In this document: piece after piece, positions 5,533 through 61,562 of the stretch | Layout of the letters: every line of letters starts with the position of its first letter | Position numbering within the stretch: position 1 is the stretch's first letter | DNA from: Collinsella tanakaei | Lineage (GTDB): Bacteria > Actinomycetota > Coriobacteriia > Coriobacteriales > Coriobacteriaceae | DNA: 64,000 nt | Assembly (NCBI RefSeq): GCF_021531055.1 | Contig: NZ_JADYTL010000005.1 | Location: 1 to 64,000, forward strand | Reading direction: 5' to 3' | Position numbers and translations under genes: made by a program | The notes under the pieces: model-generated | Databases searched by the model: none | Seen by the model: only the letters and a program-made list of their open reading frames with translations | Told to the model about the DNA's origin: nothing

Positions 5533-5890
5533 CGACGCACGCGTAACTGAAATGTATCGCGTCATATGGGAAACTCGAGAGAGGATCCGCGAGCTCAACC
5601 TGACGAAATCCGCTTTCGTATCCGACGAGTCCGCACAAGGACGCATGAACGCCGACGGCATCTTTATGTGCGTCTTTCGCGTCGCAGAAGAAGCGGGCAA
5701 TATGTCCAACCAAGCAAAAAGGACATATTCGGATATACCTTGGAAAGCCATCCACGGCATGAGGAACATATTTGCGCACGACTACGGCAGACTCGACCGC
5801 TCGATCGCCTGGAGTGCCGTGACGGAAGATTTCCCAAAGCTCGAAGCGTTTTGCAGGCGATACGCCGCCGACCGTGGCTTGAAGCTGTAG
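5513..5890 (+). CDS. hepT: HEPN-domain toxin (HepT-like)
   Basis: A 125-residue alpha-helical protein with the HepT signature RX4HXY: Arg84, His89 and Tyr91 in RNIFAHDY. In characterised HepT/MntA systems this motif forms the RNase active site and the tyrosine is AMPylated by the antitoxin. The start at 5513 lies inside the antitoxin gene (20-base overlap), with GAGGG about 11 bases upstream, which suggests coupled translation with antitoxin first. Its stop is only five bases from the convergent acetyltransferase stop. The region has repeats and an acetyltransferase nearby and looks accessory. Confidence 0.85.
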   Translation: MSARSSDDARVTEMYRVIWETRERIRELNLTKSAFVSDESAQGRMNADGIFMCVFRVAEEAGNMSNQAKRTYSDIPWKAIHGMRNIFAHDYGRLDRSIAWSAVTEDFPKLEAFCRRYAADRGLKL

Positions 5891-5895
5891 CAGCC

Positions 5896-6441
5896 CTAAC
5901 CGACAAGTTTGTACCTGGCACCATCTTGTCGTGACAGAAGGCGTTGGCAGTATTCGACGCGACGTTCACCCAGCAGCTCCACCTCGCGTTCGACTCGATA
6001 TTGGAACACAAAGCCGAGCTTCTCCTGCACGCGGCGCGAGCGCTCGTTGCCCTCATAGTATCCCGCCCAGATCGAGATAAGCCCGAGCTCATCAAAGCCG
6101 TATGCCACCACGGCCCGCGCAGCCTCCGTGGCATAGCCAAGGCCCCAGTGCGCTGCGCCGATCCAGTAACCGAGTTCCGCCTCATCGATACCCGCCATCT
6201 CCGAAGTGTCCTCGTGTTTAAGGGCGACGGCTCCCACAAGCGCCCCCGTGGTCCGTTCGACGATGGCAAAGCTATCGGGCATCATCAAGACATTGCGAAT
6301 GATCCCGGCGCTCTCCTCCACACTGCGATGGGGAGGCCAGCCCGCCGCCGGACCGACCCTCGGGTCGCGCGCAAGCTCAAATAGGGCATCGGCATCGTCT
6401 TCGCGCCAAGAGCGCAACAGCAAGCGATCGGTTTCCAGCAT
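5896..6441 (-). CDS. GNAT-family N-acetyltransferase
   Basis: A 181-residue acetyltransferase resembling the RimJ/RimL branch. The N-terminus MLETDRLLLRSWREDD is typical, and the acetyl-CoA-binding segment (GYWIGAAHWGLGYATEA) and NERSRRVQEKLGF are present. The start at 6441 has GGAG seven bases upstream. The last 11 codons (RQDGARYKLVG) and the stop are encoded by a 32-bp repeat (5900-5931) whose identical twin lies 50 bases upstream of the gene. The C-terminus therefore seems to have been set by the repeat, and the whole gene looks like an inserted cassette. The substrate (protein N-terminus, antibiotic or small amine) is unknown. Confidence 0.82.
   Translation of the reverse strand: MLETDRLLLRSWREDDADALFELARDPRVGPAAGWPPHRSVEESAGIIRNVLMMPDSFAIVERTTGALVGAVALKHEDTSEMAGIDEAELGYWIGAAHWGLGYATEAARAVVAYGFDELGLISIWAGYYEGNERSRRVQEKLGFVFQYRVEREVELLGERRVEYCQRLLSRQDGARYKLVG
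5900..5931. repeat. 32-bp direct repeat, copy 1 (flanks the GNAT gene)
   Basis: Identical over 32 bases to 6492-6523 and in the same orientation. It is an imperfect palindrome: CGACAAG and CTTGTCG form 7-bp arms, with GTACCTGGCAC in the loop. It encodes the last codons of the acetyltransferase. Confidence 0.9.
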
Positions 6442-6491
6442 CTCCAAGCTCCATCGGTATCTGCACGGTGACTTCACACATGCAATCGTAG

Positions 6492-6523
6492 CCGACAAGT
6501 TTGTACCTGGCACCATCTTGTCG
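6492..6523. repeat. 32-bp direct repeat, copy 2 (flanks the GNAT gene)
   Basis: Exact second copy of the 5900-5931 repeat. Bases beyond each end differ between copies, so the boundaries are sharp. Reading on the minus strand, GTGCCA inside the repeat lies 17 bases from TACGAT, so this copy might supply a -35 box for the acetyltransferase. Confidence 0.9.
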
Positions 6524-24797: not shown

Positions 24798-24926
24798 CCG
24801 TTTACGGTTCGGTTTTATGGGCGCGTATTGAGTAGAGCGGCTCATGGACGCAGAAGGCTCGCAGGTAGCGCGCTTGCCATGTTGGACGATACTCGAAACA
24901 TCCATCTAAAACCGAACCGTAAACGG
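24798..24926 (+). repeat. palindromic repeat element, copy 1 of 5
   Basis: A 129-bp element between purF and purM, with perfect 19-bp terminal inverted repeats (24798-24816 and 24908-24926) of core GTTTACGGTTCGGTTTT. The interior has the family's GAGTA...TACTC inner pair and GCAGGT core. No coding capacity. With flanking bases it makes up most of the 332-base gap 24649-24980. It may serve as the purF 3' hairpin, since no other terminator is seen there. Confidence 0.92.
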
Positions 24927-24980: not shown

Positions 24981-26603
24981 TCAAACAGCGGGATGGGCCG
25001 CCTCCCAGCTATGGTCGCGCTCCTTGGCCACCACGACGTCGCGAGGCAGCACGGGGTTCTCGGTCAGGTTGCAGGGGTCGTAGCCGGGCATGAACTTGTC
25101 GCGTCCGAAGCTCTCGGGGATCGCGATCGGATACACCCCGGTGAAGCAGGCCGTGCAGTAGCCCCGTGCCGGGCACCCCTCACCGGCGACCTCACCGCAG
25201 GCGGGCAGGCACGCGAGCAGTCCCTGCACGGAGAGGAACGCCAGCGAATCCGCGCCGATGTAGTCGCGGATCTCGTCGACCGTCTTGTTCGCGCTGATGA
25301 GCTGCGCCTGCACGTCGGTATCGATTCCGTAAAAGCACGGCCACACGACCTCCGGAGAGTTGATGCACACATGCACCTCGGCGGCGCCGGCGTCCCGCAG
25401 CATCTTGACGAGCTGCACCATCGTGGTCCCGCGGACGATGGAATCGTCGATCACCACCAGGCGCTTGCCGGCGATGTTGTCGCGCAGCGGATTGAGCTTC
25501 ATGCGCACGCCCATCGCGCGGAGCTCCTGCGTGGGCTGGATGAAGGTGCGCGCGACATAGCGGTTCTTGATCAGGCCTTCGCCGAAGGGGATACCGCTCT
25601 CGCGCGCATAGCCCTCCGCCGGGGGCATGCCGGAATCGGGCACGCCGATGACCATATCCGCCTCGACCGGTGCTTCGCGCGCCAGCTGGCGGCCCATGTC
25701 GTAGCGGCAGGCGTAGACCGATTTGCCGCCCATGATGGAGTCCGGTCGGGCAAAGTAGACCTGCTCGAAGATGCACTCGGCGCTCTCCGGCATCGCGGGC
25801 ACACCCTGTTCGGACACAAGGCCGTCGGCGGAGATGCGCAAGATCTCACCGGGGCGGATATCGCGCACGTAGCGCGCGCCCACGATATCGAGCGCGCAGG
25901 TCTCGGACGCCACGACCCAGCCGGCGACATCGGCCGCGTCCACCGCGGCAGCCGAATGGGTTGAATCGAACACGTCCCCATCTGACCCATCGTCTGCGGG
26001 GAGCTTGCCGAGCACGAGGGGTCGGATGCCGTGCGGATCGCGAAACGCGTAGAGCGCTTGCTCGTTGATGAGCGTCATGGCATAGCCGCCGCGGATGAGC
26101 TCCATGGTCTTGCGGATACCCTCGCGCAGATGATGGGATTGCTGGGTGAAATAGCCGATAAGTTTGGTGGCGACCTCGGAATCGGAATTGGATAGGAAGG
26201 GAACGCCGAGCTCGATCAGCTGGCGGCGCAACTCGTCGGTGTTCACGAGCGTCCCGTTGTGGGCGAGCGCCGTGATCACGTCGCCGATCGTGGAGAGATG
26301 CGGCTGGGCCGCCTCCCAGCTCTTGGCGCCCGCCGTGCCGTAGCGCACATGACCCACCGCGAGCTGGCCGGATAGCGACGACAGGTCGGCGTTGGAGAAC
26401 ACCTGGTCGATCAGACCGAGGTCCTTGCGGACCATGACGGTGCCGCCATCGCCTACGGCGATGCCGGCGGATTCCTGCCCGCGATGCTGCAGCGCCTTTA
26501 GACCGAAATAGGTGATGCGGGCGACATCGCGCCCCGGCGCCCACACGCCGAAGACACCGCACTCCTCGTGGAGGGTATCGTCACCATAGACTTCGTTGAA
26601 CAT
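24981..26603 (-). CDS. purF: amidophosphoribosyltransferase
   Basis: First committed step of purine synthesis. 540 residues. The nucleophile is Cys15 in HEECGVFG, so a 14-residue propeptide must be removed. The PRPP loop VIDDSIVRGTT is present. Four cysteines at the positions of the B. subtilis [4Fe-4S] ligands are kept (SETCAL, WPCFYG and the pair in YCTACF), so an oxygen-sensitive iron-sulfur form is likely. The start at 26603 follows GAGAGG. Downstream, a repeat element separates it from purM. Confidence 0.97.
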   Translation of the reverse strand: MFNEVYGDDTLHEECGVFGVWAPGRDVARITYFGLKALQHRGQESAGIAVGDGGTVMVRKDLGLIDQVFSNADLSSLSGQLAVGHVRYGTAGAKSWEAAQPHLSTIGDVITALAHNGTLVNTDELRRQLIELGVPFLSNSDSEVATKLIGYFTQQSHHLREGIRKTMELIRGGYAMTLINEQALYAFRDPHGIRPLVLGKLPADDGSDGDVFDSTHSAAAVDAADVAGWVVASETCALDIVGARYVRDIRPGEILRISADGLVSEQGVPAMPESAECIFEQVYFARPDSIMGGKSVYACRYDMGRQLAREAPVEADMVIGVPDSGMPPAEGYARESGIPFGEGLIKNRYVARTFIQPTQELRAMGVRMKLNPLRDNIAGKRLVVIDDSIVRGTTMVQLVKMLRDAGAAEVHVCINSPEVVWPCFYGIDTDVQAQLISANKTVDEIRDYIGADSLAFLSVQGLLACLPACGEVAGEGCPARGYCTACFTGVYPIAIPESFGRDKFMPGYDPCNLTENPVLPRDVVVAKERDHSWEAAHPAV

Positions 26604-36692: not shown

Positions 36693-36823
36693 CCCGTTTA
36701 CGGTTCGGTTTTGCAGGGGTACCCCGAGTAGCGAGGCCCTTCGCGCCGGAAAACCCGCAGGTCAGGACAGCGCCGTTTTTCGGACTACTCGAGGGGCGCC
36801 GTCAAAACCGAACCGTAAACGGG
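36693..36823 (+). repeat. palindromic repeat element, copy 2 of 5
   Basis: 131 bp with perfect 20-bp terminal inverted repeats (36693-36712/36804-36823). The interior holds GAGTAG (36726-36731) and CTACTC (36785-36790) as an inner pair and the GCAGGTCAGG core shared with copy 5. It lies downstream of the carB terminator in the 414-base gap 36526-36939. Confidence 0.93.
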
Positions 36824-40262: not shown

Positions 40263-40355
40263 GGTGGACGGCAGGGGGCGTGTTCGCCTCAACCCATTTC
40301 CCTATGGGATGGGCAAAAGGGGATGAAGCGAACACGTCCCCATTTGACCGTCCGC
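40263..40355 (-). other. large hairpin in the carA-carB gap
   Basis: The 125-base gap folds into a nested hairpin: GGTGGACGG (40263-40271)/CCGTCCGCC (40348-40356, with one G-T pair), and a 14-bp inner stem GGGGGCGTGTTCGC (40274-40287)/GCGAACACGTCCCC (40328-40341, one G-T pair). No T-run follows. It may protect or separate the two coding regions, or attenuate carB. Confidence 0.6.
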
Positions 40356-46969: not shown

Positions 46970-47095
46970 GTTTACGGTTCGGTTTTGAGGCATCCTGCCG
47001 AGTGGACATCGTCCTCAAATCGACAAACTCGCTGGTACAGCTTGTGCATACAAGTGTTGATACTATCGATGTGCCTATAAAACCGAACCGTAAAC
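46970..47095 (+). repeat. palindromic repeat element, copy 3 of 5
   Basis: 126 bp, 17-bp perfect terminal inverted repeats (46970-46986/47079-47095). The interior is the most diverged: GAGTGG replaces GAGTAG and the core reads GCTGGT. Located between the purD terminator and the NUDIX gene. Confidence 0.9.
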
Positions 47096-56255: not shown

Positions 56256-57176
56256 TCAACACGCCGGCGGAACAGGCGGCACCGAGGAGGTATCCGACAC
56301 ATCACGCTGCGGCACGCCATCGGGCAGCGGGGCCGACGAAACGCCCCAACGCCCGACCTCGAATCGACAGAGCCACTGACCGACCGCATTGATGCACACC
56401 AGGTTCATCGCAGTCGAGATAACCGACCCCGCAAAGGTGACCGATACGAATGCCGCGACGGTCAGCACCACGATCCCCGGCCCAAGGCCGAACAGCAGCC
56501 GCTCGATGCCACTGCCGGGACCCACCGCGAGCTCGACCGCCACGCCCATGACGCCGCCGAACGCGATGCCGCTTGCGACCAAGGCGACCAAAAGACCGTA
56601 GAGGATATTGATCGCACCGCCGATCAACGAAATCGCGTAGAGATGGAGAAAACCGCTCGCGTCGCGTGCCACCATCTGGAAAAGCCTGTCCAGGCGCCAG
56701 CCCGCGGCAAAGCTGTCGTAGAGGGTCGCCCGCAGCATCGCCGCCGCGCAAAACGTTCCCGCAAGCAGATTGAAGGCGAGCATCACCAGCACGACAAGGG
56801 GGGACATCCGGCGCATGATGTCGAGCAGCGATCCGCTGAACAGGTTCACTCCCGCCGGGAACAACGCGGCGGAATACCAGTCACCGAACAGGAGCATGTC
56901 GAGAAGCATGAGCACGAAGCCCATCGTCACGCTGACCAAAAACGCGATGCCACCCGTGGCGAGGACCTTGCCGTACGCGACGCCGCGCTGCTTGGGCGCC
57001 GCATCGACGCCCCACGCCGTCAGCCGCGCCCATTCGAGTGCGTAGCCGAGCACCGCGATCTGCCCCAGAACGGGAATCCATCCCACCAAGGTGAGCACGA
57101 GAACGGGCTTGATCCATCCCTTGTCTCTCGTCAGCATCTTCCACGAAGACGCGAAACCAAGCTGTCGGGCGTACAT
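56256..57176 (-). CDS. DUF4013-type membrane protein
   Basis: 306 residues with about six to seven hydrophobic segments. The N-terminus (YARQLGFASSWKMLTRDKGWIKPVL) and the pattern of glycine-rich helices fit DUF4013 proteins, whose function is unknown. C-terminal 30 residues are polar and Pro/Ser-rich. GGAGG lies four bases before the ATG at 57176; an in-frame ATG 27 codons earlier has no such site. Confidence 0.65.
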   Translation of the reverse strand: MYARQLGFASSWKMLTRDKGWIKPVLVLTLVGWIPVLGQIAVLGYALEWARLTAWGVDAAPKQRGVAYGKVLATGGIAFLVSVTMGFVLMLLDMLLFGDWYSAALFPAGVNLFSGSLLDIMRRMSPLVVLVMLAFNLLAGTFCAAAMLRATLYDSFAAGWRLDRLFQMVARDASGFLHLYAISLIGGAINILYGLLVALVASGIAFGGVMGVAVELAVGPGSGIERLLFGLGPGIVVLTVAAFVSVTFAGSVISTAMNLVCINAVGQWLCRFEVGRWGVSSAPLPDGVPQRDVSDTSSVPPVPPAC

Positions 57177-57360
57177 GCACCCTCCTCGTTCGCAAACATC
57201 CGGCGCGCACGATGCGCCCCAAGGCAAGTGTATCCATCCGATCGGATCGGCCGGCACGAGACGGATACATTTAAGGGCTATTTAAGCGGCCCTCCCCGTG
57301 GGATGATAAGACGGATTCGAACGAATCCGCCACATTTTTCGACGGACTTGAGATTGGCAC

Positions 57361-57388
57361 TTGATTGCGTCCGCGTTTACGGTACAAT
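57361..57388 (+). promoter_or_regulatory. promoter of the tRNA-Ser pair
   Basis: -35 TTGATT (57361-57366), 16-base spacer, -10 TACAAT (57383-57388), placing the start about 10 bases before the first tRNA. Confidence 0.75.
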
Positions 57389-57404
57389 TGCCTGTGCATT
57401 TCAC

Positions 57405-57495
57405 GGAGAGTTGTCCGAGTGGCCGAAGGAGCACGATTGGAAATCGTGTAGGCGCCAAAAGCGTCTCCAGGGTTCAAATCCCTGACTCTCCGCCA
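57405..57495 (+). tRNA. tRNA-Ser (anticodon GGA)
   Basis: Full cloverleaf with a type II long variable arm. Acceptor GGAGAGT/ACTCTCC, anticodon stem CACGA/TCGTG with loop TTGGAAA (anticodon GGA), T-arm AGGGTTCAAATCCCT. Discriminator G and encoded CCA end the gene. Confidence 0.97.
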
Positions 57496-57543
57496 GCATC
57501 CTCTCATGGCGCGCCTTCGGACGCGCCATGTTTCACTCCATGC

Positions 57544-57635
57544 GGAGGAGTGGCAGAGTGGTTGAATGCGGCGGTCTCGAAAACCGTTTACCCGGTAACC
57601 CGGGTACGAGGGTTCGAATCCCTCCTCCTCCGCCA
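57544..57635 (+). tRNA. tRNA-Ser (anticodon CGA)
   Basis: Second serine tRNA, 48 bases after the first. Acceptor GGAGGAG/CTCCTCC, anticodon stem GCGGT/ACCGT with loop CTCGAAA (anticodon CGA), long variable arm, T-arm GAGGGTTCGAATCCCTC, discriminator G and encoded CCA. Confidence 0.97.
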
Positions 57636-57888
57636 TTTAAACCTTCCAACAATTCAACACTCCCATTTTCGATCCCCTTGCTGCAACGTGCAGGAGGGAT
57701 TCGAACCCGCAGGGCCTCATGCTGTGCAAGCCTGCGGCCGGCACCCCTCCTTCGCCATCATTCCCTGTCAACAGGCACATACCCGCAGTGAGAAACCCCT
57801 TGCCGAGGGGCTGACGACACCACGGTTCCTCGCTCATCCGCTATACTGAAAGAACGCTGTACACGGAATTTCCTCGAATGGAGCCGCC

Positions 57889-58440
57889 ATGATTCCGACC
57901 ATTATCGGCATCGTTATCGTCATCGCCATCATCTGCGCGATCGCCGGCATCTATAACAACATGGTCACGCTGCGCAACCGCATCGACAACGCGTGGCAGA
58001 ACATCGACACGCAGCTGCAGCGCCGCAACGACCTCATCCCCAACCTGGTGGAGATGGTCAAGGGTTACGCCGCCCACGAGAAGGAGGCGCTCGCCGCCGT
58101 GACCAACGCGCGCAACAACGCCGTTGCCGCCACCACCCCCGAGGACAAGATGGCCGCCGACGGCATGCTCACCGGCGCGCTTCGCCAGCTGTTCGCCGTG
58201 GCCGAAGCCTACCCCGACCTCAAGGCCAACACGAACTTCATCCAGCTGCAGACCTCGCTCGAGGATACCGAGAACAAGGTCTCCTACGCACGCCAGAGCT
58301 ACAACGACTGCGTGCTCAACTACAACAACGCCATCCAGACCTTCCCCGGCGTCATCTTCGCCGGAATCTTCCAGTTCAAGGAGCGCTCGGGCTTCGAAGC
58401 CGAGGAAGCGGCGCGCACCGTGCCGGAGGTCAGGTTCTAG
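57889..58440 (+). CDS. lemA: LemA family protein
   Basis: 183 residues: N-terminal membrane helix (about 2-22), then an all-helical domain with the family motif RIDNAWQNIDTQLQRRNDLIPNLVE and FPGVIFAGIFQFKER near the end. LemA proteins are of unclear function, often near membrane proteases. A TATACT -10-like box lies at 57842-57847. TGGAG lies five bases before the ATG. Followed by a strong terminator. Confidence 0.96.
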   Translation: MIPTIIGIVIVIAIICAIAGIYNNMVTLRNRIDNAWQNIDTQLQRRNDLIPNLVEMVKGYAAHEKEALAAVTNARNNAVAATTPEDKMAADGMLTGALRQLFAVAEAYPDLKANTNFIQLQTSLEDTENKVSYARQSYNDCVLNYNNAIQTFPGVIFAGIFQFKERSGFEAEEAARTVPEVRF

Positions 58441-58472
58441 AAACCGATCCTCAACAGGCGTTTTGTTGATAT

Positions 58473-58514
58473 GGCACCGTTTGGGCGCACGCGCCCAAAC
58501 GGTGCCTTTGTTTA
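58473..58514 (+). terminator. rho-independent terminator of lemA
   Basis: 15-bp perfect stem (58473-58487/58492-58506), four-base loop CACG, tail TTTGTTTA. The tail runs into the left end of repeat copy 4. Confidence 0.93.
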
Positions 58515-58634
58515 TGGTTCGGTTTTGGAGCGGTCCTTGGAGTAGAGACGACCGTCATGCCAACAAAATTGCTGGTAGACGGCTTGACGTTTTTTGGTCT
58601 ATTTGACCCGCCGGCCTAAAACCGAACCATAAAC
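58510..58634 (+). repeat. palindromic repeat element, copy 4 of 5
   Basis: 125 bp with perfect 17-bp terminal inverted repeats (58510-58526/58618-58634). Both ends carry the same change relative to the other copies: GTTTATGG at left and CCATAAAC at right instead of GTTTACGG/CCGTAAAC, so pairing is kept. Makes up much of the 415-base gap 58441-58855. Confidence 0.93.
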
Positions 58635-58855
58635 CGGCATACCCGATTTGCCGGCCGACGAAGACCGTAAAGAGAGGGAGAATGGACGCCGAACAAGCTG
58701 CCGAGAGGCGGCCGCCGCGGCTCCCATGCCTTTCCCAAATCGGTCGAACCTTACCGGATCCCGACAGGGATCAAATGGTTTCCCAACACCGTTTTCCCAG
58801 CTAGATAGTGTGATTTCTCGTTCTTCAAACCCCTTTGGCATGCTATCCTCTCTCC

Positions 58856-60079
58856 ATGGGTAAGCAGTTTGACGCCATTGTGTGCGACCTGTCGGCCTGG
58901 CAATACCGGTCGACTCCGCCAGCCATACGCAAGGCGATTCTCCCCACAGAGCTGGCACGCGAATCTATGCCGAAAAGCCCTGAGCTCTCGGCTTCCCTCC
59001 GCGTGCCGAGAAAGAACGCGCGCCGGCCCGACGCGCTCATCAGCTCAAGACTGCTTGGCGATTTGAAGGGCGTCTCGCTACCCGTCCATGTCATCACGGA
59101 TTCCTTGAAGACCAGGCTGGTCACGACCCTCGTCCATCCGCACCGCATGCGCATCGGCCTGATGGACTCCGAGCTTTACGACCTAGGAGGCGGACTTGCC
59201 GTGACCTCCCCCGAGGCAACGCTTCGGCATCTTGCAAGAACGCACACACTTGGCTTCGTCCTCGAGAAGATGCTCGAAGCGTGCGGTATCTACAGCGTGG
59301 TTCCCCAAACTGCGCGCGTTGCGGCGACGATCGGCCTCCTTGTCCAAGAAGGGCTGTTCGCCCGTAGCGCCATCGCGCGAATGCCCTCGATCAGCGCGTT
59401 TTACGATGAGGCCGGAAGCATCGTGTCCCACATAGATCGTGAAGGAAATCCTCTGGATTGGAAACCGGCGATCGACCGATCGGGAGTCATCACCAACCTA
59501 TGGAAGCGCCCGCAGCTCGTCTCGTTGGACAACCTGCGTGCACACACGAAAGCCGCCGCGCAGCCCCCCCGCGCGCGCGGCACCGCCCGCGCGCTTTGCG
59601 CCGCGCAGCAGGCCATGGAAGGATCAGGCTCCCCGCTCGAAAGCAAGGCTGCCATCATGCTCTTCACCGAACGATCCATCGGCGGCGAGCAGCTGACGGA
59701 CGTCAGGCTCAACCATACGATCGCCCTCACCGAGAAGGCACAAGCGCTCGCTCATCAAAAAACGTGCGTAGCGGATGCGCTCGACTCGCAGCACGAGCTG
59801 GTGTTCGAAGCGAACGGTGAGGCGTATCACGCCGACAGGCACGGTTTTACCGAGCAATCGGGCAGGAGGGCGGCACTTGAAACCATAGGCTACACGGTCA
59901 TGGACATCACGAATGATATGATCAACGATCTTGAGCGCTTCGACGCCTTCCTGACCTCGATAGAGATGCAGACAGGGATACACCTCCGCGATAAATCCGT
60001 GGCCTTCTTGGGACGAAGGGAAAAGCTTCATGGCGAGCTGTTCTCCCCGCACACGCTCCGTGCGGGAAAGCACCCGTAA
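58856..60079 (+). CDS. hypothetical protein with DUF559/Vsr-like endonuclease C-terminus
   Basis: 407 residues, between two repeat copies. No firm family. The C-terminal 110 residues (ELVFEANGEAYHADRHGFTEQSGRRAALETIGYTVMDIT) follow the pattern of DUF559/Vsr-like PD-(D/E)XK nucleases: acidic residue, Glu, His, Asp/Arg, then R-x-x-x-L-x-x-x-G-x-x-V. The middle (about 85-150: HPHRMRIGL, LAVTSPEATLRHLAR) resembles AbiEi-type or related regulator-nuclease proteins. The ATG at 58856 has no ribosome site; a TTG at 58835 also lacks one, so a leaderless start is possible. Likely accessory; activity is unproven. Confidence 0.6.
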   Translation: MGKQFDAIVCDLSAWQYRSTPPAIRKAILPTELARESMPKSPELSASLRVPRKNARRPDALISSRLLGDLKGVSLPVHVITDSLKTRLVTTLVHPHRMRIGLMDSELYDLGGGLAVTSPEATLRHLARTHTLGFVLEKMLEACGIYSVVPQTARVAATIGLLVQEGLFARSAIARMPSISAFYDEAGSIVSHIDREGNPLDWKPAIDRSGVITNLWKRPQLVSLDNLRAHTKAAAQPPRARGTARALCAAQQAMEGSGSPLESKAAIMLFTERSIGGEQLTDVRLNHTIALTEKAQALAHQKTCVADALDSQHELVFEANGEAYHADRHGFTEQSGRRAALETIGYTVMDITNDMINDLERFDAFLTSIEMQTGIHLRDKSVAFLGRREKLHGELFSPHTLRAGKHP

Positions 60080-60115
60080 AAACATGGAAGCAGCGCCTCC
60101 GAAACCGATAATCGC

Positions 60116-60240
60116 ATTTACGGTTCGGTTTCAGAGGATTATTCCGAGTAGACACACCGTTCTCGTCAATAAATGCGCAGGTCAGGGCATCGCACGTTTT
60201 TTGTCTACTCAGCGGGTTGCTCCAAAACCGAACCGTAAAC
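60116..60240 (+). repeat. palindromic repeat element, copy 5 of 5
   Basis: 125 bp with 15-bp perfect terminal inverted repeats (60117-60131/60225-60239). Strong inner pair GAGTAGAC/GTCTACTC and the GCAGGTCAGGGCA core. Sits between the endonuclease-like gene and the convergent transporter gene. Confidence 0.92.
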
Positions 60241-60261
60241 ACGCCGATTGGTTTTAGAGGC

Positions 60262-60311
60262 CGGCGGAGGCAGGAAGATCCCCGAAGACGAGGCCCGACA
60301 CGCCTCCGCCG
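60262..60311. other. long-loop inverted repeat after the Nramp-like gene
   Basis: Ten-bp arms CGGCGGAGGC/GCCTCCGCCG (60262-60271/60302-60311) around a 30-base loop, directly downstream of the transporter stop on the minus strand. No T-run follows, so terminator function is doubtful. Confidence 0.4.
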
Positions 60312-60320
60312 ACGACCCTC

Positions 60321-61562
60321 TCAGTAACCGAGGGCCTGCAGCGCGAACATCACGACGGTGAGGACCGTGATGATCACGATGGTCGCCCAGGTCAGCGCGT
60401 TCCAGACGCGCCCGTTGCGGTACTCGCCCATGATGTGGCGGTCCTTGGCGATAAACAGGAGGAACACGAGGAGCACCGGAAGCAGCACACCGTTGATGAC
60501 CTGCGCGCTCATCATGATCTGGAACAGGTTGACACCGGGCATGATGACCAACAGCGCCGACGCCACGATAACGGCGGTGATGATGCCGCGGTAGACCGGC
60601 GCCTCCTCCCAACTGCGGTCGGCTCCGCGCTCCCAACCGAACGCCTCGCAGATCGCGCTCGACGTGACGCCGGGCAGCACGCAGGCGGCAAGGAAGCTCG
60701 CCGCGACCAGGCCCGAGGCGAACAGGACCGTCGAGAACTTGCCGGCGATCGGCTCGAGCGCGAGCGCGGCGTCGGCGGCATCGGCAACCTGGACGCCCGC
60801 CGGGTAGAGCACCGCGCCGGTCGTCACGACGATGAACCATGCGACGGCGCAGGCGATCACCGATCCCGACGCGGTATCGATGCGCTGCAGGACGATACCG
60901 TCCTCGTCGATGTTCTTGTCCACGACGTTGTTCTGCGCCAGGAACACCATCCACGGGGCGATGGTGGTGCCGATGGTCGCCACCAGCAGGCTGACGTACT
61001 CCGGCTCGGCGACGATATGCGCCGACACCGTCGCCATGGCGACCTCGCCCCAATCGGGGCCGGCGAGAAACGCCGCCACCACGTAGGTCACGAAGACGCA
61101 GCTCACCATGAGCAGGATCTTCTCGATGCGCTGGAAACTGCCGGACATGGTGAGCAGCCAGATTGTCAGACCGACGAGCGGCACCGAAACCGTCGCGGGC
61201 ACGCCGAACAGGGCGAGACCGCTGGCGATGCCGGCGAATTCCGAGATGGTCACCGCCGTGTTGGCGATGAGCAGCGCCGCCATGGCGAGCGCGCTTTTAC
61301 GTATACCGAAGCGCTCACGGATGAGCGAGGCGAACCCCTTGCCCGTCACACAGCCGCAGCGGGCAGCCGTCTCCTGGACGACGATGAGCAACAACGCCAT
61401 GAGCGGCAGCATCCACAGCGTGCCGTAGCCGTAGCTCGCTCCGGCACTCGAGTAGGTGGCGATACCGCCGGCGTCGTTGCCCGACAGCGCCGCGAGCAGA
61501 CCGGGCCCCATGGCTCCAAGGACCGCGCCGACGGTCAGTTTTTCGCGATGTTCCTTCCGCAT
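60321..61562 (-). CDS. Nramp-related divalent metal transporter, likely magnesium type (NRMT-like)
   Basis: 413 residues, about 11 membrane helices, SLC11/Nramp fold. The first-helix metal motif DPGN reads DAGG here (Asp30 kept, Asn to Gly33). The sixth-helix MPH motif reads APW (Met to Ala203, His to Trp205). Loss of the Met and Asn while keeping the Asp is, from recall, the hallmark of Nramp-related magnesium transporters described in Eggerthella and Clostridium, rather than Mn/Fe Nramps. It begins 15 bases after an MgtE-like gene, which supports Mg2+ transport. Metal selectivity is inferred from motif changes and context. Confidence 0.85.
   Translation of the reverse strand: MRKEHREKLTVGAVLGAMGPGLLAALSGNDAGGIATYSSAGASYGYGTLWMLPLMALLLIVVQETAARCGCVTGKGFASLIRERFGIRKSALAMAALLIANTAVTISEFAGIASGLALFGVPATVSVPLVGLTIWLLTMSGSFQRIEKILLMVSCVFVTYVVAAFLAGPDWGEVAMATVSAHIVAEPEYVSLLVATIGTTIAPWMVFLAQNNVVDKNIDEDGIVLQRIDTASGSVIACAVAWFIVVTTGAVLYPAGVQVADAADAALALEPIAGKFSTVLFASGLVAASFLAACVLPGVTSSAICEAFGWERGADRSWEEAPVYRGIITAVIVASALLVIMPGVNLFQIMMSAQVINGVLLPVLLVFLLFIAKDRHIMGEYRNGRVWNALTWATIVIITVLTVVMFALQALGY

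Follow-up and report, generated by a model that had tools for sequence, protein, structure and literature searches.

Dispersed palindromic repeats are common in bacteria, and for many of them, ERIC for example, we know of no mobilising enzyme. ERIC and Correia-type palindromic elements are about 100-155 nt long, have inverted ends and are intergenic; neither type is known to have a nuclease partner. The REPIN/RAYT system combines short hairpin-forming repeats, present in tens of copies, with a partner enzyme that duplicates the REPINs. According to PMC8049555, REPINs persist, in smaller numbers, in E. coli genomes without a RAYT gene. On the nuclease side, I-Bth0305I is reported (PMC3943268) to form a dimer on a DNA target nearly 60 bp long, a length that would suit a long palindrome. 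A literature search, judged by titles and the beginning of abstracts and with most subscription journals outside its scope, gave no link between this type of nuclease and such repeats, and the available text of PMC8040213, on structured RNAs of human microbiomes, contained no DUF559.

The window analysed here is a 64,000-nt stretch of Collinsella tanakaei (NZ_JADYTL010000005.1, positions 1 to 64,000), part of a genome of 2.23 Mb in 16 contigs (G000) whose relatives are Collinsella species; other genomes, contigs, loci and elements are designated G, C, L and E. The initial annotation had described a 407-residue gene between two repeat copies of the same orientation, here copies 4 and 5, and this arrangement was confirmed by the coordinates and by the strand scores, which were better on the + strand for all five window copies (Table 1). 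The ORF is present as counted from its ATG, a mechanical ORF list beginning it further 5', at TTG 58835, and it leaves 415 bp of free space on the lemA side and 241 bp on the Nramp-like side. We consider it fairly probable that gene and repeat are the halves of one system, a REPIN/RAYT-like pair in which the enzyme is a homing-type nuclease; this pairing of a nuclease gene with a repeat family was unforeseen in the initial annotation.

Table 1. Positions of the repeat copies, genes, protein parts and putative expression signals in the window
Feature	Position	Strand	Basis
Element copy 1, dispersed	24800..24924	+	+ strand score
Element copy 2, dispersed	36696..36820	+	+ strand score
Element copy 3, dispersed	46970..47095	+	+ strand score
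lemA, 5' neighbour of the 407-aa ORF	57889-58440	+	
Element copy 4, 125 nt, arms GTTTATGGTTCGGTTTT, on the 5' side of the 407-aa gene	58510..58634	+	hairpin fold, model score
CAGCTAGATA, where related promoters have GCAGGTA	58798..58807	+	read by eye
-10-like TGCTATCCT, 6 nt ahead of the ATG	58841..58849	+	read by eye
407-aa ORF, homing-endonuclease-like protein, A3 family	58856..60079	+	ORF list, Pfam, alignment, predicted model
N-terminal part, residues 2-147, weakly AbiEi-like fold	58859..59296	+	AbiEi 6y8q Z 5.2
C-terminal nuclease domain (predicted), ~residues 255-400	59618..60055	+	alignment, model, profile
Element copy 5, 125 nt, starts 37 bp past the stop codon	60116..60240	+	hairpin fold, model score
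Nramp-like gene, convergent with the 407-aa ORF, followed by an MgtE-like gene	60321-61562	-	

The window copies are imperfect palindromes of 125-126 nt (124-126 nt across 29 genome copies read), with 17-nt arms reading GTTTACGGTTCGGTTTT or nearly so, inside which lie a GAGTAG/CTACTC inner pair and a GC[A/T]GGT core, with variants. The covariance model found 37 distinct element places in the window genome at E<=6.2e-9; the same search gave 79 rows up to E 1, since both strands of a palindrome are matched. In 15 of the 29 fully read copies the two arms are perfectly complementary, and mean column conservation among the 23 G000 copies of exactly 125 nt was 97.6% in the arms and 65% in the interior. 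An element match at E<=0.001 was obtained in 42/42 genomes of the genus searched. Close spacing of copies 4 and 5, on which the initial annotation had laid weight, is real at 1.6 kb; about one neighbour within this distance is expected by chance for 37 copies in 2.23 Mb, and a second pair on the same contig is spaced by 1959 bp, so that the bracketing alone is not significant. At the site of copy 3 (46970-47095), where the window has a single element, G021 has two about 6.2 kb apart (L165/L166), with a 1925-codon surface-protein-like ORF between them.

The hairpin folds of the five window copies had z values of -5.1 to -6.6, with 0/200 shuffles as good. Such strong predicted hairpins adjoining a nuclease gene could also be read as an element working as RNA, structured or guide, with the adjacent nuclease in an OMEGA-like manner. 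This is extremely improbable, given that the orientation of the core relative to the gene varies, as read by eye, and that a search of positions 57000-61000 in Rfam at E<=1 gave no match for copies 4 and 5.

The association of gene and element is well supported. Similarly built palindromes with other arms were seen by eye at 10 of 12 homologues (the window included; not at L047 and L132), and a scripted scan detected a palindrome at 29/30 loci, some of them non-adjacent. With adjacency taken as a palindrome of 100-170 nt lying no more than 300 bp 3' or 400 bp 5' of the gene, it was found in 35 of 44 protein clusters (65 members, clustered at 50% identity), a rate that applies to the better matches, as the family loci were the best-scoring hits; by profile strength the figures were 34/38 clusters at E<=1e-31 and 1/6 among weaker ones. 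The A3 profile was built from protein only, and the rows L127, L071 and L086 were picked after their elements had been seen. Among control ORFs of the named loci an adjacent palindrome occurred in 39/551. Because the named loci repeat the same genes, the controls were clustered at 50% as well, giving 31/246 by any member and 21/246 by the first member (Fisher p 8e-19). When all 19 family members of three further genomes (G008, G065, G005) were taken, 7 had an adjacent palindrome. The positive clusters extend beyond the window's family within the same order, and the window genome itself holds a further gene-element pair (element G000:C11:10237-10394, gene C11:10468-11418). The arms differ between gene lineages and are private to each, and elements bearing them are often dispersed in the genome that has the gene.

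To follow the distribution of arm types, 17 gene-adjacent elements were joined into one query and compared with 17 genomes; E01 was represented in it by window copy 2, not a gene-adjacent copy; the counts, made by hand, are lower bounds and include gene-adjacent places. E01 occupied at least 11 places in G000, at least 10 in G021 and at least 4 in G022, and no other genome among the matches listed. Several places per genome were likewise counted for E15 (at least 17 places in G149), E12 (at least 8 in G027), E08 (at least 8 in G003, at least 7 in G009), E14 (at least 4 in G000, at least 3 each in G021 and G022), E06 (at least 4 in G005, at least 2 in G015) and E16 (at least 4 in G034). Lower counts were obtained for E13 (at least 2 in G000, at least 1 each in G021 and G022) and E10 (at least 1 in G029, at least 2 in G019), as well as for E09 (at least 2 each in G003 and G009), E04 (at least 2 in G020) and E17 (at least 2 in G031). 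Among the matches listed, arm types occurred in genomes that have the cognate gene or in close relatives of these. Dispersed copies picked up with the G000-type model carried the local gene's arms in two of three read in G013 (L170, L232) and in the one read in G001 (L233).

Several observations count against the nuclease-palindrome pair as the explanation. E09, E04 and E17 had only gene-flanking places among the matches listed, and E02, E03, E05, E07 and E11 only the gene-adjacent place; dispersed copies of E02 and E05 were found by other means. The two gene-flanking copies of G149 match the query on opposite strands, and the third G013 copy (L231) has E01-like arms instead of those of the local gene. 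An arm prediction written beforehand for G008, G065 and G005 failed: none of the A3-family genes found in these genomes adjoins the arms of the dispersed families of G008 and G065 or those of another family in G005, so that orphan element families exist. Many E01-type elements in G021 and G022 occur without a close homologue of the gene, and of 14 genomes four (G006, G007, G009, G030) gave no E08-type gene at E<=1e-50, although each of these four has an E08-type element at the L214 site. From these observations it seems that the genes come and go and that the elements outlive them.

The junction between lemA and the Nramp-like gene was compared in relatives, as the initial annotation had proposed, and the gene, which it had called accessory, was indeed not at this locus in all of them. 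The closest species by LemA are G021 and G022 (97% and 98% identical), at whose junction the 407-aa gene was not found; one element stands there, its core in the opposite orientation and its arms different from those of the window copies. G013 has a homologue of only 43% identity at the junction, although its LemA and Nramp proteins are 94% and 92% identical, and the arms of the neighbouring element differ from the window's. Homologues lie upstream of mgtE in L046, L047 and L079 and beside nramp in L071, and in seven relatives (L040, L043, L063, L125, L041, L042, L084) the junction is occupied by a 689-782-codon ORF, presumably acyltransferase-like. Absences are provisional here and elsewhere, several genomes being drafts or metagenome assemblies.

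The two direct copies around the gene had led the initial annotation to a composite mobile unit or recombination hot spot, that is, to direct repeats moving the gene in and out by homologous recombination. Repeat-gene-repeat arrangements do recur at other loci (L034-L037, L086, L127, L176, L179, L246, L256), and the element kept at the empty junction of G021 and G022 could be taken as a remnant of such an exchange. With its flipped core and other arms it is not what a simple recombination of copy 4 with copy 5 would leave behind, and a clean relic at the empty site is ruled out by these features; moreover the palindrome was detected on just one side of the gene in 30/35 positive clusters, and no element was seen by eye at the gene-less sites of the L034 locus (G028, G058, G059). 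At the latter sites the neighbouring gene also ends differently, and replacement of a longer stretch may therefore account for the change in the gene. A composite transposon carrying its transposase in the flanks was discarded, copies of 125 nt having no room for one. Movement by recombination between direct repeats, as in a composite unit, is on these grounds quite improbable. Inspection by eye of the ends of the copies read out for this purpose revealed no target-site duplication, and no clean empty site was found.

The nuclease-like end proposed for the protein was supported as a prediction by the structure and profile comparisons. Pfam DUF559 (PF04480) matched the window protein at E 0.0027 with 18 bits, against a gathering cut-off of 20.6, and none of 10 relatives rose above this cut-off. 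In an alignment of 19 proteins (the window protein and 18 relatives of 23-43% identity) E262, D307, E318 and H325 are invariant, as are S259, P260 and R337. Residues 259-374 of the AlphaFold model (pLDDT 77.8, pTM 0.82) superposed on I-Bth0305I (3r3p) with Z 9.4 over 94 aligned residues (rmsd 2.7), and also on NGO0050 (3hrl, Z 8.6), Vsr (1vsr, Z 6.6) and TnsA (Z about 5), the matches to 3r3p, 3hrl and 1vsr together covering residues 258-375; the same list includes mitochondrial ribosomal chains at Z 8-9, which tells against the assignment. Foldseek with the whole model gave no PDB match at E<=0.001, its top rows by E-value being mitochondrial ribosomal chains with TM about 0.2. The sequence profile matched 3r3p at E 5e-4, with an artificial TIM barrel about equal. 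The C-terminal domain is predicted from the model to have a Vsr/EDxHD (I-Bth0305I-like) nuclease fold.

The AbiEi-like middle of the initial annotation is better described as a weak AbiEi resemblance in the N-terminal third. Modelled alone (pLDDT 68), this part matched the S. agalactiae AbiEi structure 6y8q over 94 residues with rmsd 4.9 and Z 5.2, the sole structure to reach Z 5 in the follow-up comparison, and gave nothing in Foldseek at E<=0.001; the follow-up with the whole model gave Rv2827c (1zel) at Z 4.5. No AbiEii-like toxin gene stands beside the 407-aa gene, its neighbours being lemA and the Nramp-like gene. PADLOC had no family for the window protein at E<=0.01, which gives the suggested defence role no direct support; over the 19 family proteins there were weak matches only, to HEase (4), Hhe (1) and AbiEi (1, E 0.0097). 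PHROGs and NCBIfam contained no informative family for the protein.

As had been remarked in the initial annotation, no Shine-Dalgarno-like sequence is seen before the ORF. The sequence TGCTA directly before the ATG recurs in L010, L011, L012 and L014, all four with GCAGGTA upstream, and this motif of the related promoters is also the core motif of the element. Judging by eye from these signals, the gene probably has no leader, and the absent ribosome site would thereby be explained; the signals also suggest that the gene is perhaps self-regulated.

Across 27 loci, arm similarity was about at chance below some 60% protein identity and rose above it, the fraction of pairs beyond the 95% point of the null being 0.40 at 60-75% identity and all above 75%. 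The correlation of arms with protein, uncorrected for shared ancestry, was 0.71 by Pearson (0/5000 permutations) and 0.10 by Spearman. The 13 G021 copies fall into three arm subtypes, with a side-to-side mismatch of at most 1 in 11 of them and of 3 and 4 in the others. Three G021 copies at different places agree at 110-116 of 125 bases, and at 76-82 of 91 in the interior, where other pairs average 50/91 and one other pair reaches 80/91; this agreement suggests recent spread. Some element positions are common to several species. A test for an insertion junction, in which the joined flanks served as query and nine genomes were aligned, found no clean insertion with a defined junction, the sole aligned presence/absence site being a mosaic of several hairpins. 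At this site G014, G023 and G028 are without the element and also without the neighbouring hairpin, so that no junction can be defined.

These data bear on a reading in which the protein is a DNA-binding regulator or a defence nuclease and the palindromes serve as binding sites for it, as decoys or as transcription-end structures, maintained by selection and non-mobile. Such a role would suit the siting of the window copies in gaps between long ORFs (copies 2 and 3 do overlap shorter ORFs of the mechanical list), the recurrence of the GCAGGTA core where related genes have promoter-like regions, the weak AbiEi resemblance, and the element of the L214 site, covered full-length in 9/12 other genomes searched (G021 and G022 not counted). 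We regard it as unlikely: the three near-identical G021 copies point to recent spread, interiors diverge while arms stay uniform, presence varies between species at one site, and the window protein is without a PADLOC match.

Several further observations were made at such elements. L225 (G011:C5:71400-74000) has a transposase ORF, partly reading N and presumably IS110-like, in a 1.6-kb insert within the L214-site element, and matches in G010 break inside three such elements onto different contigs; from these an IS may target them. At L206 (G023:C1:1346500-1350500) the element upstream of the L034-type gene is interrupted by a 1.5-kb insert, and its two matches overlap by about 7 bp. Near the L209 site (L222-L230) there is a further hairpin family (GTTGCGGTGGAATA...), the inner arms of which switch on both sides together between genomes.

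The window genome also contains four Y1/RAYT-like transposase genes (PF01797; L133-L136), and close to each of them stand inverted repeats of its own, such as GGGACAGTCCC, ACACGTCCCC, AACCCCTGGGGTT and AAAAGGGGCCAGGAG. The window has two further short repeat families, one at 5890-5931 and 6482-6523, the other at 25955-25987 and 40317-40349, the latter resembling repeats beside the RAYT-like gene of L135. The four Y1 genes, with other repeat families beside them, would allow a different enzyme, either a RAYT or an IS transposase, to move the palindromes, with the nuclease gene as a passenger tolerating or preferring such sites. This is very improbable, the exact arm strings of the element being found within 1.5 kb of none of the four Y1 loci and the arm type tracking the nuclease gene among the matches listed; a RAYT link was rejected on the first of these counts.

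In the preferred reading of a nuclease paired with its own palindrome, the protein would be a homing-type (EDxHD/Vsr-fold) DNA endonuclease, the N-terminal part of which probably recognises the arms of its element. The element itself would be a non-autonomous hairpin-forming sequence of about 120-165 nt with outer arms specific to the gene lineage, inside which, in the window's family and many others, there are GTAG/CTAC arms and the GC[A/T]GGT core. The nuclease would most likely nick or cut at the element or a similar site, be it duplex, cruciform or lagging-strand hairpin, and repair from another copy as template would spread the element or overwrite copies. Such repair would keep the arms uniform within a genome and let both sides change together between species. 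By analogy with REPIN/RAYT and homing endonucleases, copying or conversion of the element by the nuclease would be the most economical mechanism. The analysis shows the anatomy, the adjacency of gene to element, the matching of arms and the predicted nuclease fold; binding, the part responsible for it, cleavage and copying are inferred. A fuller account, offered tentatively, is that Coriobacteriia have many diverged nuclease-palindrome pairs, with several in one genome, each spreading and homogenising its non-autonomous palindrome by cutting at its own arms and repair, with fast co-evolution of protein and arms and with orphan populations left after gene loss. The findings suggest an unreported type of selfish or domesticated DNA element with a partner enzyme, in a group of gut bacteria.

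Known systems resemble this pair in different parts. With AbiE toxin-antitoxin systems there is the weak N-terminal fold likeness to AbiEi, to which a predicted nuclease domain is here added. ERIC and Correia-type elements are similar in size, inverted ends and intergenic siting. I-Bth0305I and Vsr have in common with the protein the predicted nuclease fold, a weak profile match and conserved, putatively equivalent acidic and His residues; unlike I-Bth0305I, the gene has no intron and another N-terminal type, and stands intergenically beside a dispersed palindrome. The pairs would also provide natural nucleases in series, the long DNA targets of which co-vary, so that recognition could be tested directly. 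With REPIN/RAYT the window element shares dispersed inverted arms, a variable spacer and a hairpin, the repeats being likewise short and in tens of copies, and element type matches the type of the partner gene among the matches listed, orphan families excepted. In contrast to REPIN/RAYT, the genes here are patchy, with several divergent pairs per genome, and the elements measure about 120-165 nt. The partner there is a tyrosine transposase (PF01797), whereas here a nuclease of the PD-(D/E)XK/EDxHD type is predicted; if the preferred reading is true, a chemically unrelated second partner enzyme would mean more than one origin of REPIN-like populations, and orphan elements elsewhere would gain a candidate enzyme type.
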